From the NCBI GenBank assembly GCA_027492795.1, contig JAPUEB010000018.1:1-64000 (forward strand): a stretch of DNA of 64,000 nucleotides. The letters are read 5' to 3'. Below are positions 4,163 to 36,417 of the stretch, in pieces (positions within the stretch are counted from its first letter, which is position 1; every line of letters begins with the position of its first letter). The DNA comes from Chryseobacterium sp. (lineage in GTDB: Bacteria; Bacteroidota; Bacteroidia; Flavobacteriales; Weeksellaceae). A program made the translations under genes and the position numbers. The notes beneath the pieces are model-generated. The model was not told the DNA's origin. It saw nothing but the letters and a program-made list of their open reading frames with translations, and did not search any database.

Positions 4163-4825
4163 TTAAAATTTAAACGTATTCGCCGGAAAAACTTTGTTAG
4201 TTTCAACTTTATTCAAAAGCATCACATAATCGCTGTCTTTTTTCGGGCTTGAACTTTCAATTCTGAACGGAAACATTAACGCTCCCACTCTTTTATAATC
4301 GGAATAGACCAAAGTTTCGTCTTTTTTTTCCTCTTTCAGCAGCATATAAGTTTTTGTATCAAAATAGTAAAGTGTTTTGTTTACGTTTTTGGTAAGTTCT
4401 ACTTTATGACAATAAATATCGCCTACTTTTTCCTTTCCTAAATATTTGGCGATGAATCCTTTACTTTCAAAATCGATAAAATCGTTATCAAAACTTTCTG
4501 CTACATAATTTGGATATTCTTGCAATTTATTGGCTGCGTAATTCATTGCGTAACCTTTTTTTCCGTCGTAACCTTCAATTGCGGTTTCTTTTTTTCCGAT
4601 GGTAATTACGGTTTTGGTAAGATTAGGTCTTGCTTGAAAGATTCTGATAGGATATTCGTCATTAATCCCTAAAGTCACTTTTCCGTACAGTAAAACGGTG
4701 TTCAACAATTTCCAGTTGGTTAAACCGCCCGAAACTTCTATATTTTTATCAATAATTTCTTTTCCGGTTTGTGCTGAAATTATCGTGTAAGTTATTAGTA
4801 AAAAAACTAAAAATATTTTCTTCAT
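4163..4825 (-). CDS. LolA-like / outer-membrane lipoprotein-sorting-like secreted protein
   Basis: A 220-residue exported protein: residues 1-18 are a signal peptide ending near ISAQ. The body has the beta-rich pattern of the LolA/LolB-like lipoprotein-carrier superfamily: GYDGKKGYAMNYAA, a central KVGDIYCHKVELTK strand, and YYFDTKTYMLLKEEKKD followed by YSDYKRVGALMFPFRIE. This is the usual pattern of flavobacterial proteins named outer membrane lipoprotein-sorting protein. Start at the ATG at 4825 gives MKKIF; an ATG two codons upstream (4831) is equally possible. The ligand is unknown. Confidence 0.7.
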   Translation of the reverse strand: MKKIFLVFLLITYTIISAQTGKEIIDKNIEVSGGLTNWKLLNTVLLYGKVTLGINDEYPIRIFQARPNLTKTVITIGKKETAIEGYDGKKGYAMNYAANKLQEYPNYVAESFDNDFIDFESKGFIAKYLGKEKVGDIYCHKVELTKNVNKTLYYFDTKTYMLLKEEKKDETLVYSDYKRVGALMFPFRIESSSPKKDSDYVMLLNKVETNKVFPANTFKF

Positions 4826-33043: not shown

Positions 33044-33425
33044 CAGGTTCAAAACAGACCAAACGCATTAAAAATAGGTTAGATACCATGAATTCTTTAT
33101 TCCTTTCAAGAAAACAAGATTGTAAATACTTTATTCTGATAGGCGATCTACTTTTTTTAGCCGCTGAATTAAGGGTGACTCAAAAGGCAGCAGAGAATAA
33201 AAAAACCTTATTCCATTAGTAACTTTTTACATGAGCATGAAGCTCACCCTTATTCCATATATCAGGAAAATTTCTTTTTTTAATAAAGGAATAAGGTTTT
33301 TGTAGTTCCTTAATCGAAATTTTACTAATGGAATAAGGTCTTTTGTATAAAAATTTCGTTGTATAAAGAACAACTCAATATTTAATTTGAGATAAAATTT
33401 TAATGCGTTTAACCCAGGTTCAAAA
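33044..33425. mobile_element. candidate MITE-like non-coding element with nested inverted repeats
   Basis: CAGGTTCAAAA is a perfect 11-bp direct repeat at 33044-33054 and 33415-33425. Inside are nested inverted repeats: AAACGCATTAAAA (33061-33073) with its complement at 33398-33410; an 18-bp perfect pair at 33205-33222 and 33322-33339 (ACCTTATTCCATTAGTAA); and CCTTATTCC at 33248-33256 with GGAATAAGG at 33288-33296. No convincing coding frame. Together this fits a miniature inverted-repeat element with a target-site duplication. Confidence 0.4.
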
Positions 33426-33431
33426 AAATTA

Positions 33432-33464
33432 TTTGTAAAATCCAAAAAATAGTCTTTATATTTG
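33432..33464 (+). promoter_or_regulatory. promoter of the rtcB leader
   Basis: TTG at 33433-33435, a 21-base spacer, TATATTTG at 33457-33464. Predicted transcription start near 33470. Confidence 0.65.
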
Positions 33465-33502
33465 CGCCAAGAAAATTTTAACCCTTTAAAAACAACGAAG
33501 CA

Positions 33503-33580
33503 ATGTTCAAATTTAGCGAATACCATTCTACTGCGACACCACTTTCTGTGGTTTGCTTCGGGCTGTTTACTTTTCAATAG
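33503..33580 (+). CDS. putative leader peptide upstream of rtcB
   Basis: A 25-codon ORF, MFKFSEYHS...SVVCFGLFTFQ, that starts 33 bases after the predicted transcription start and stops 25 bases before the terminator stem. There is no run of one amino acid, so it is not a classical biosynthetic attenuator peptide. Its codons lie within mutually exclusive RNA segments, which suggests that translation of this ORF controls the structure. Confidence 0.45.
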   Translation: MFKFSEYHSTATPLSVVCFGLFTFQ

Positions 33581-33602
33581 AAATTTTTTACAATGAAAAT
33601 AC

Positions 33603-33636
33603 AAACCCGAAGTTGCAAGATTTCGGGTTTTTTTTG
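33603..33636 (+). terminator. leader terminator
   Basis: AAACCCGAA and TTCGGGTTT form a 9-bp stem with a 10-base loop and are followed by T5. It would end transcription 180 bases before rtcB unless the antiterminator forms. Confidence 0.75.
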
Positions 33637-33814
33637 TGAAAATTTTTCAAAATATTTTTTCTAAAAACATTCCCGAAATTTTAAAAGATTAGCCTTTAAA
33701 CCGTCAAATTTCTGCCGGAATATTCTTGATGATTTTGTTAAAAATCTTATCTGGAATCTTAAAATGATGAATACAAATGGTATTCATCCAAAGTCTATTA
33801 TCAATATTAAAATT

Positions 33815-35206
33815 ATGGGAAATTTAAAAATAAGAGGTAAAGATTTGCTGCAAATCGGTTATCCGAACGACAAATCCGTTACCGTTGCTTTGGAAGTGGT
33901 AAAGAAAAACTTTCAAGACAAAAATGTGGCTTTCGTGAAAAGCCAGTTAGAAAAAATTTTACAAAATCCTGCTGAATTTTCTGCGCACCTTACTTTCGGG
34001 CAAATTGCGGAAGAACTTTTATCAGGCAAAAAAACAGAAAAGCAAATGTTATTAAAAAATAGGGTTCCGCATCAAATTTTTGGGAACGAAATATCAAATG
34101 ATGCCATCAACCAGTTTTATACCTCGCTAAAATTGCCAATTTCGGTAAAAGGCGCATTAATGCCGGATTCGCATTACGGTTACGGATTGCCGATTGGTGG
34201 TGTTTTGGGTGTAAAAAACGCCGTAATCCCTTTCGGAGTGGGTGTGGATATTGGTTGCAGAATGTGTTTAAGCATTTTGGACATTCCGATTTCGTACTTA
34301 GATGGCGCGAAAGAAAAATTTAAAAACGCACTGATGGAACACACCAAATTTGGGATGAAAGAAGTGCACAAATCCCATATTGAACACGAAATTTTCGATA
34401 GGGAAACTTTTGATCTAATTCCAATTTTAAGAAGATTAAAGGAAAAAGCGATTAAACAAATGGGAAGTTCGGGTGGTGGAAATCATTTCGTGGAATTTGG
34501 TGAGGTGGAGATTTTGGAAGAAAACAACCAAATTAATCTCCCGAAAGGCAAATATGTTGGAATACTTTCACACAGCGGTTCTCGTGGATTTGGGGCGGAA
34601 ATTGCGCAATATTACACGCGAGTTGCCATAGAAAATTGTCCGCTGCCAAAAGAGGCGCAACATTTAGCTTGGCTGGATTTGGATACGCATCTTGGACAGG
34701 AATATTGGATTTCGATGAATTTAGCGGGAGATTATGCATCAGCTTGTCACCACGACATTCACAGGAGATTGTTGAAGGAAATTGGAGGAAAAATGAAGAC
34801 ACGAATCGAGAATCACCACAATTTTGCATGGAAGGAAATTCACGACGGCGAAGAACTCATTGTTCACCGAAAAGGCGCAACTCCCGCATCTGAAAACGAA
34901 TTGGGAATTATTCCTGGTTCTATGACGAGCAAAGGGTTTATCGTTCGAGGTTTGGGAAATCCAAATTCACTAAACTCGGCTTCGCATGGAGCCGGAAGAG
35001 CCTTCTCCCGAAGTTCGGCAAAAAGCACTTTCACCATGAATGAAATGAAAAATGAGCTAAAAAATCATAAAGTTTCACTTATTGGCGGAGGTTTGGAAGA
35101 AGCACCGATGGTTTACAAAAACATCAACGATGTGATGAATGCGCAGCAGGATTTGGTGGATATTTTGGGAACTTTTCAACCGAGAATTGTAAGAATGGAT
35201 AAATAG
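33815..35206 (+). CDS. rtcB: RNA-splicing ligase RtcB-like protein
   Basis: Joins RNA 2',3'-cyclic phosphate or 3'-phosphate ends to 5'-OH ends via a GMP-histidine intermediate. The guanylylated histidine is H391 in SASHGAGRAFSR; metal residues include C148 in DIGCRM, the GGGNH block at 220-224 and H253 in LSHSGSRGFG. Start at 33815 (MGNLKIRGKDLLQIGYP) fits the family; a longer frame to 33764 adds an unrelated leader. 463 residues. It lies 11 bases before prfH, as in RtcB2-PrfH rescue modules. Confidence 0.92.
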   Translation: MGNLKIRGKDLLQIGYPNDKSVTVALEVVKKNFQDKNVAFVKSQLEKILQNPAEFSAHLTFGQIAEELLSGKKTEKQMLLKNRVPHQIFGNEISNDAINQFYTSLKLPISVKGALMPDSHYGYGLPIGGVLGVKNAVIPFGVGVDIGCRMCLSILDIPISYLDGAKEKFKNALMEHTKFGMKEVHKSHIEHEIFDRETFDLIPILRRLKEKAIKQMGSSGGGNHFVEFGEVEILEENNQINLPKGKYVGILSHSGSRGFGAEIAQYYTRVAIENCPLPKEAQHLAWLDLDTHLGQEYWISMNLAGDYASACHHDIHRRLLKEIGGKMKTRIENHHNFAWKEIHDGEELIVHRKGATPASENELGIIPGSMTSKGFIVRGLGNPNSLNSASHGAGRAFSRSSAKSTFTMNEMKNELKNHKVSLIGGGLEEAPMVYKNINDVMNAQQDLVDILGTFQPRIVRMDK

Positions 35207-35217
35207 TTTTTAAAAAA

Positions 35218-35814
35218 ATGAAACAGATTATACAGATTACCTCCGGAAAAGGACCGATTGAATGCGAGTTTTACACCGAAAAAGTTTTTGAAATGATAAA
35301 AAAAGAAATGCGCGAAAAGCAGATTCAGTTTGAAGTTTTAGAAACCATTGAAGGTGAAAAAATTGGATTTCAGTCGATAACAATTGAGCTGGATAAGAAC
35401 GATGAATTTTTAAAATCTTGGAAAGGCAGCATTCAGTTTGTGGCGAAAAGCAAATTCAGACCAAATCATCAACGAAAAAATTGGTTTGTAGGTGTTTTCG
35501 AAATTGAAAACTTACAGGAATTGATTTTAAATGAAAGTGATTTGCAATTTCAAACGATGAGAAGTTCCGGAGCGGGCGGACAAAACGTAAACAAAGTAAA
35601 TTCTGCGGTTCGCGTTACGCATTTGCCAACGAAAATACAAGTGGTCGCAATGGATTCCCGCTCTCAACTGGAAAATAAAAAATTAGCAATTACCCGATTG
35701 AAACTAAAAATCATCGAACAAAATGCAAAACAAAAATCGGTTCTAAAAGAGAACCAATGGATGAACCACGTTCAGCTGGAGCGCGGAAATCCGATAAAAA
35801 TTTTTAAAATGTAG
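35218..35814 (+). CDS. prfH: peptide chain release factor H (PrfH-like)
   Basis: A 198-residue release-factor-like protein. The peptidyl-hydrolysis motif GGQ is at 120-122 in SSGAGGQNVNKVNSAVRVTH. It is too short for the stop-codon-recognising domain of RF1/RF2, the hallmark of PrfH. PrfH and RtcB have been described as a module acting on ribosomes cut in the decoding site; the gene order here matches. Confidence 0.9.
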   Translation: MKQIIQITSGKGPIECEFYTEKVFEMIKKEMREKQIQFEVLETIEGEKIGFQSITIELDKNDEFLKSWKGSIQFVAKSKFRPNHQRKNWFVGVFEIENLQELILNESDLQFQTMRSSGAGGQNVNKVNSAVRVTHLPTKIQVVAMDSRSQLENKKLAITRLKLKIIEQNAKQKSVLKENQWMNHVQLERGNPIKIFKM

Positions 35815-35853: not shown

Positions 35854-36417
35854 ATGACGCAAAATAAATACTACTTTCAGGCTTTAGACAATTTCCCCTA
35901 CAACTTGGAGGAAACTGTGGAAGCCTTGAATTACGCTATTTCTTTCGACGGACAAAACCCGGAAACGCTTTGCCTTTTGGCGAGGGTTTATTCCGAAGTG
36001 TTGAAAGATTATGAAACCGCGAAAGCCTACTTTGCAGAAGGTTTTCAGGAAAAAATGGATTCCACAACGCTCCCAATTCCTTATATTTCATGCTTAATTA
36101 ACAATGAAGATTATGCCGAAGCAGAAAAATTAATTGATTACGCAATAGGAATAAAAGGTATCGACAAAGCGACACTTTACTATCAAAAAGCGTTGATTTT
36201 GGAACGAAAAGATGAGTTAAAATTATCTTTAAAGGAATTGAAGATTGCCAAAAAATTCGCTTTTAACCAAAATTTTATGAGTTGTATTGAGGAAAGATGC
36301 GATTTTATCAAAAAGAAAATCAAGGATTTGAAGTCTAAAAAATCGAAAAAGAAATCTTCGAAAAAACTTAAGGATAAAAAGGAATCGGCAAAAGCAGCTT
36401 CAAAAAAGAAGAAATAA
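35854..36417 (+). CDS. TPR-like protein with lysine-rich tail, unknown
   Basis: A 187-residue protein of helical repeats: NLEETVEALNYAISFDGQNP, ARVYSEVLKDYETAKAYFAE, NNEDYAEAEKLIDYAIGIKG and ATLYYQKALILERKDELKLS look like TPR units. Residues about 152-187 are almost all Lys and Ser. It lies 39 bases after prfH, with a terminator after it, so it may be the third gene of the operon; the basic tail could bind RNA or ribosomes (inference). Confidence 0.75.
   Translation: MTQNKYYFQALDNFPYNLEETVEALNYAISFDGQNPETLCLLARVYSEVLKDYETAKAYFAEGFQEKMDSTTLPIPYISCLINNEDYAEAEKLIDYAIGIKGIDKATLYYQKALILERKDELKLSLKELKIAKKFAFNQNFMSCIEERCDFIKKKIKDLKSKKSKKKSSKKLKDKKESAKAASKKKK

Follow-up and report, generated by a model that had tools for sequence, protein, structure and literature searches.

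The window, by which we mean the whole 64,000-nucleotide stretch of Chryseobacterium DNA that was analyzed, contains on its plus strand the genes for an RNA ligase (rtcB), for peptide chain release factor H (prfH), and for a TPR-repeat protein, the third gene of the unit (Table 1). The prfH product scores above the family cut-off, and a TPR gene lies behind prfH in most relatives as well. In E. coli, relatives of rtcB and prfH rescue and re-ligate ribosomes that have been cut by colicin E3 (PMC9223846). Just upstream of rtcB is a leader for which the initial annotation had listed a promoter, a short open reading frame (ORF), and four pairing segments. All of the elements that it named are present in the window sequence, and the promoter, the ORF, and segments 1 to 3 lie precisely where it placed them. 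The terminator arm that it assigned to 33622–33630 also exists but is properly TTTCGGG at 33621–33627, within a stem that spans 33603–33630. Its description in four segments likewise stands, except that it overlooked an internal hairpin (P2) and took the antiterminator to be shorter than it is.

Table 1. Positions of features in the window and, where a locus number (L) is given, in the loci of other genomes
Feature	Position	Strand	Remarks
Promoter	33432–33464	+	σA-type; TTTG at 33432–33435, −7 box TATATTTG at 33457–33464
Segment 1 (5′ arm of P1)	33496–33503	+	CGAAGCAA; covaries with segment 2
Leader ORF	33503–33580	+	25 codons and TAG; MFKFSEYHSTATPLSVVCFGLFTFQ, then stop
P2 hairpin, within the ORF	33538–33552	+	ACCAC-TTTCT-GTGGT
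Segment 2	33553–33562	+	3′ arm of P1 TTGCTTCG at 33553–33560; 5′ core of antiterminator CTTCGGG at 33556–33562
Extension of antiterminator 5′ arm	33563–33579	+	within the last ORF codons; duplex prediction
Antiterminator 3′ arm	33588–33612	+	includes segment 3, CCCGAAG at 33606–33612, doubling as the terminator 5′ arm
Intrinsic terminator	33603–33636	+	AAACCCGAAG-TTGCAAGA-TTTCGGGTTT and U run
rtcB (RNA ligase)	33815–35206	+	ATG at 33815; Pfam PF01139, E = 1.4e-80
prfH (peptide chain release factor H)	35218–35814	+	NCBIfam TIGR03072, 207.6 bits (cut-off 166.65)
TPR-repeat gene	35854–36417	+	TPR_19 match
Accessory ORF, other genomes	L026: 1853–2575; L133: 2371–3090		also in L020, L022, L062, L070, L081, L132, L138, L142
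Second leader type	L133: 2120–2260; L134: 2740–2870; L152: 4290–4400; L153: 4310–4430; L156: 3590–3700; L158: 4330–4430		
Second leader type	L230, L232, L233: near 1500	−	

Transcription is predicted to start near position 33470. The motif TAnnTTTG, which is the mapped σA motif of flavobacteria (PMC9723704), was found in 67 of 81 distinct leaders, mostly 46–51 nucleotides 5′ of the AUG, as against 10 of 405 control windows. No TAnnTTTG promoter is present between the terminator and rtcB (33636–33815), where a separate promoter, had there been one, would have told against control by the leader; the best candidate in this interval, a seven-of-eight match (TGATTTTG at 33730), has no TTTG 17–20 nucleotides upstream.

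Immediately 5′ of the promoter (33180–33360) is a dispersed repeat with inverted arms of 28 nucleotides. Searching the genome with it gave 28 matches, and five further copies are 89–92% identical over nearly the full length; it looks like a MITE-type element.

Competing helices and their covariation

The leader folds with an energy of −37.5 kcal/mol, compared with −27.1 kcal/mol for shuffled sequences (z = −2.9). Three of its structures, P1, the antiterminator, and the intrinsic terminator, are mutually exclusive, and P2 is an additional hairpin inside P1. As judged by duplex prediction, the antiterminator exceeds 7 bp, joining approximately 33555–33579 to 33588–33613 and thereby covering the 3′ third of the ORF.

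The initial annotation had suggested asking whether the segments covary among related leaders, and they do: P1, P2, the antiterminator, and the terminator all exhibit compensatory changes. In an alignment fitted to the structure formed by P1, P2, and the terminator, 99% of cells are paired, 12 of 20 pairs have changed on both sides, and the covariation score is 0.217, compared with 0.092 in shuffled alignments and at most 0.05 when the structure is slid along the alignment. P1 together with the antiterminator gave 0.235 (0.107 in shuffles). The antiterminator is not part of the covariance model described below and was aligned on its own, using 29 distinct sets of segments anchored by hand on CUUCG/CGAAG and a per-sequence bulge rule that favors pairing; under that rule it is 94% paired and the score is 0.235, shuffles giving 0.123 and sliding no more than 0.075. 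Covariation exceeded that of all 500 shuffles, but two of the five measures for the antiterminator, the number of pairs changed on both sides and the number of further pair types, were matched by 41 and 77 of the 500, respectively, and, the leader sequences being related, none of these counts represents independent events.

Some of the exchanges can be read directly. Antiterminator variants include GGUUU:AAACC, GGCUU:AAGCC, GACUU:AAGUC, and GAUU:AAUC, with the terminator arm changing to match. The last pair of P1 (position 6) is C-G, A-U, U-G, or U-A, and in leaders from two genera (L141 and L143) P1 has CUGAAG:CUUCAG in place of CGAAG:CUUCG. P2 is in some relatives exchanged as a unit, ACCAC..GUGGU giving way to GCCUUU..AAAGGC (in DNA, CCTTT..AAAGG).

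The leader ORF and its tie to rtcB–prfH

The ORF is intact in all 81 distinct leaders, with a length of 19–29 codons (25 codons in 54 of them), and in a global alignment the insertions and deletions that distinguish clades within it come in threes. When single-base codon differences were compared over codons 4–14 of the leaders from the same family as the window, 48% were synonymous in frame, the shares for the other two frames being 21% and 9%. Because the ORF thus appears to be under selection for coding, we infer that it is translated. The stop codon is TAG in 74 of the 81 leaders, and TAA predominates among the long ORFs of the window and of the loci, which served as the reference. This preference may reflect pairing around the stop or the use of RF1.

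The leader is present once in its own genome, and of 320 genomes in the same family, 240 have a BLASTN match to it. In the loci that we read among these matches, the leader is followed by rtcB, in some cases with an accessory ORF of about 240 codons in between, or, in one case, by the TPR gene. A covariance model (P1, P2, and terminator) built from 16 of the own-family leaders was then run on 396 Flavobacteriales genomes, in which PrfH was searched for independently. The model matched leaders in Flavobacterium, a member of another family (E of 1e-6 to 6e-9), and every strong Flavobacterium locus fetched has rtcB downstream, nearly always with prfH and the TPR gene, even though RtcB is only about 56% identical between the two groups. 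Reciprocally, a model built solely from leaders of the Flavobacterium type recovered the leader of the window with an E-value of 7.7e-7.

Across the 396 genomes, 73 had both a model match and PrfH, three a match only, and eight PrfH only (Fisher p = 2.6e-66). By eye, a divergent leader was recognized upstream of rtcB in all eight of the last class (in one of them, L142, the displayed stretch lacks the start of the leader, whose complete ORF was obtained separately), so that all 81 PrfH-positive genomes in this sample of Flavobacteriales have a leader, 73 by the model and eight by inspection. In 72 of the 73, prfH shares the strand of the leader, at a distance of 1.5–3.6 kb. As for the three genomes with a match only, one match (G551) is a gene-end terminator and looks spurious; one locus (L145, in G159) has the leader, rtcB, and the TPR gene but is missing prfH; and one (L144, in G099) has the leader alone, with no rtcB, prfH, or TPR gene in the 4 kb behind it. 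The leader can evidently outlive its genes, and the last two loci form a decay series. Weak model matches at L080, L083–L088, and L098 were inspected and look like gene-end terminators. Outside the Flavobacteriales a search for the leader gave only weak matches (E of 1e-4 to 9e-4). The leader provides an RNA marker for rtcB–prfH operons in the Flavobacteriales. A literature search, incomplete for subscription journals, turned up no published description of it, and this switch ahead of ribosome-repair genes seems to be new to the literature.

In two lineages (L007 in G243, 1734–2309, and L135 in G593, 2334–2771) the leader stands directly 5′ of the TPR gene, and rtcB–prfH is absent. Because the TPR gene is kept under the leader where the other genes are missing, it probably belongs to the same damage response. 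The accessory ORF found between leader and rtcB in some loci (Table 1) encodes a product of about 240 residues that is rich in basic amino acids and had no match in Pfam, NCBIfam, or PADLOC; other loci have additional DNA separating rtcB from prfH. Both the TPR gene and this unannotated gene become candidates for partners in repair.

PrfH-positive Sphingobacterium, Mucilaginibacter, Chitinophaga, Edaphocola, and relatives, among the matches listed, have a second type of leader, with either rtcB or the accessory gene downstream. It contains an ORF of 14–15 codons, typically MTEQIHISPLSLIA and stop (variants MTERIHISPLSPAA, MKHLTSISPLSLIA, and MTEHIHISPLSMFA), and the near-invariant DNA sequence CATATCGCCCCTTTCGC. 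In three of its loci (L230, L232, and L233), which are short, the adjoining rtcB is the only part of the operon seen. In the leaders that were folded a hairpin lies just 5′ of the AUG, and for two of three, shuffled sequences gave similar folding energies. Because this type is unrelated in sequence to the Flavobacteriales leader, there is a hint that leader control of the rtcB–prfH operon evolved repeatedly. In Fulvivirga sediminis (L163, about 4260–4470) another short ORF, MMVQKIHIALLTGMLAA and stop, followed by a terminator-like CCCGGTCCCAACGATCGGGTTTTTTT, lies 5′ of rtcB.

Ribosome position and the nature of the signal

To follow the fate of the helices during translation, a ribosome footprint extending from 14 nucleotides upstream to 15 nucleotides downstream of the first P-site base was stepped over each codon in 80 leaders, and the remaining RNA was folded by partition function, at equilibrium only. 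With the P site at codons 1–13 the antiterminator has a probability of 0.81–0.95, which falls to 0.27 at codon 15 and to 0.06 or less from codon 17 onward; P1 is partly restored when the ribosome reaches the stop codon. Along the growing transcript, the predicted order is P1 (0.85–0.92), the antiterminator once segment 3 has emerged, and P1 with the terminator in the full leader. The model thus predicts that a ribosome past about codon 15 turns the genes off and that one halted early turns them on.

These results agree with the proposal of the initial annotation that a ribosome stalled early would release segment 2 to pair with segment 3 and so block the terminator. The start codon, where it had placed the stall, falls within the predicted ON window, but that window is wider, extending over roughly codons 1–13. 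It had also held that the terminator would form both behind a ribosome that finishes the ORF and when no ribosome is present. The former is predicted here as well, but the latter is doubtful: with no ribosome and segment 3 emerged, equilibrium folding gives the antiterminator a probability of 0.77 as against 0.17. Since the equilibrium without a ribosome favors the antiterminator, basal repression would need either prompt translation or a kinetic trap at P1. Perhaps P1 is conserved as such a trap or, as in trp leaders, as a pause hairpin.

The hairpins are mutually exclusive, the constrained ORF overlaps the pairing segments, rtcB–prfH lies downstream, and ribosome position is predicted to choose the hairpin. 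We consider it probable, and hold with some confidence, that the leader is a ribosome-mediated transcription attenuator of rtcB–prfH(–TPR), much as the initial annotation had it, and that what it examines is whether a ribosome elongates. An intact ribosome would traverse the ORF and, as segment 3 emerges, would shield segment 2 together with the 3′ portion of the ORF; the terminator would then form, ending the transcript at about 165 nucleotides. If instead a ribosome initiates and then stops within about 13 codons, it would hold P1 open and leave segment 2 free, allowing the antiterminator to form and the repair genes to be transcribed. Each transcript would sample one ribosome, such that output would track the damaged fraction. 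Because there is no conserved control codon, the signal would be a general failure of elongation, with no particular codon required.

What would most naturally throw such a switch is damage to the translation machinery of the kind that these genes mend, chiefly 16S rRNA cut at the decoding center. E. coli ribosomes cut by colicin E3 still initiate at about 70–75%, but amino acid incorporation drops to zero after about eight codons (PMC2615495). This halt falls inside the predicted ON window and before the OFF point, and E3-cut ribosomes would for that reason keep the switch on, no special codon being needed. Because the position of the halt fits, we favor damage as the natural signal. The leader would then be a cis-acting sensor of ribosome damage, in which ribosomes cut at the decoding center activate the genes for their own release and repair by way of codon-independent early halting and not of a peptide or an amino acid. 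We assign this reading a probability of about 0.45. A damage sensor was already suggested in the initial annotation and now, with the E. coli biochemistry, stands as a better-grounded suggestion; the link to damage draws on that biochemistry and on gene function, and specificity for damage, over elongation failure in general, may be supposed rather than asserted.

Other early stalls, whether brought about by antibiotics or by starvation, could throw the switch likewise. It is a substantial possibility, though well short of even odds, that the leader was selected as a general sensor of translation stress caused by ribosome-targeting antibiotics or starvation, in the manner of toiL or bmrB. The predicted ON window would answer whatever halts a ribosome early; at least five classes of antibiotics are sensed by toiL through stalls at different positions (PMC12121999), and bmrB relies on a small translated ORF together with alternative stem-loops (PMC4191407). 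Against this, the genes to which the leader is tied are rtcB–prfH, not those for pumps, ABC-F proteins, or methylases, and RtcB and PrfH mend and rescue cut ribosomes (PMC9223846), making damage the signal that matches the output. The stress and damage readings do not exclude each other.

We judge it unlikely that the leader senses particular tRNAs, with ribosomes stalling at early codons once one of them has been lost to an anticodon nuclease or to starvation. tRNA is another substrate of RtcB, and rtcBA operons of the RtcR type respond to broken tRNAs (PMC7790460); moreover, codon 2 is invariably Phe in the own-family leaders, its UUC showing no wobble change. But the divergent leaders begin MID, MNC, MTY, MTI, MTL, or MSL, and no amino acid occurs within codons 2–13 of all 26 representative leaders, the best being Phe (24), Leu (23), and Ser (21). 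Starvation for a specific amino acid is therefore unlikely as a general signal. The usual biosynthetic attenuator, which the initial annotation had already set aside, is rejected: the ORF has no run of codons for any operon amino acid, the downstream genes are rtcB–prfH(–TPR) and not biosynthetic or aminoacyl-tRNA synthetase genes, and among the Flavobacteriales loci examined there was no amino-acid operon with the leader, whose discovery would have weighed against a repair switch.

A switch made of RNA only, either a riboswitch or one in which a protein of the RtcB or PrfH type binds P1 or P2 and translation is incidental, is improbable. P1 and P2 are structurally conserved, and P1 closes a loop resembling that of an aptamer. 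Such a switch does not account for an ORF that is open in every distinct leader with an in-frame coding signal, and P2 has been swapped for other sequence. Nor did we find the conserved ligand-binding core of a riboswitch, the sequences of P2 and of the loop varying between clades with no loop sequence common to them. In Rfam, every family fell short of its gathering score on the leader (Leu_leader, with 23.2 of 50 bits, is one example), and permissive thresholds likewise yielded no match.

Very improbable is an arrest leader of the erm/msr type, in which an antibiotic would cause a programmed stall on the nascent peptide at the conserved VVRLRG. Arg-Leu-Arg is present in most of the own-family leader peptides, and it resembles known macrolide arrest motifs. 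It is, however, encoded by the CUUCG of segment 2, and a ribosome stalled there (codon 17 or later) would block the antiterminator. The motif is also absent from the window, which has VVCFG, and from Flavobacterium, which has LLRG. Arrest of the macrolide type at Arg-Leu-Arg is thus rejected on geometry, and the motif is not conserved either.

Finally, a plain, unregulated terminator with chance complementarity can be set aside: terminators with CCCGAA stems are common here, and the weak model matches at the loci named above look like gene-end terminators, but this reading is already contradicted by the comparative data (conservation across families, covariation of all helices, the coding signal, and fixed promoter spacing), and upstream of the leader there is no plus-strand gene that needs termination.

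Relation to known regulators

Among the closest relatives in design are attenuators of the trp/his type, which have been reported for flavobacterial amino-acid operons (PMC9723704) and which, like the leader described here, have four segments, three exclusive hairpins, a coding leader, and an intrinsic terminator before the genes. The present leader differs in having no run of control codons, in that any stall in codons 1–13 should switch it on, and in that its output is ribosome repair and not biosynthesis. In bmrB–bmrCD of Bacillus subtilis (PMC4191407), a small translated ORF with alternative stem-loops likewise sets downstream transcription, in response to translation inhibitors, but the output is a drug transporter, the phylum, sequence, and layout are different, and the terminator lies within the bmrB coding region. 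The toiL upstream ORF of topAI–yjhQ in E. coli (PMC12121999) is similarly multipurpose, sensing stalls at several positions that include the start codon; it acts, however, on translation initiation and Rho-dependent termination and has no link to ribosome repair.

With respect to the genes themselves, the rtcB2–prfH pair of E. coli is the same and is expected to repair cuts of the E3 type (PMC9223846, PMC1586002); text searches of these two papers found no mention of attenuation or of a leader for it. Control of rtcB has been well studied in one case only, that of rtcBA under RtcR (PMC7790460, PMC9650030). RtcR (PF06956) is absent from the genome of the window, a search in which the E. coli control was positive, and membership in an RtcR regulon is accordingly rejected. 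What the two arrangements would share is damage-induced control of an RtcB ligase. RtcR is a σ54 activator whose CARF domain binds tRNA fragments, whereas here control would be exerted by a leader in cis; if the damage reading is true, the damaged ribosome would itself be the sensor, read in cis on the operon for its repair.
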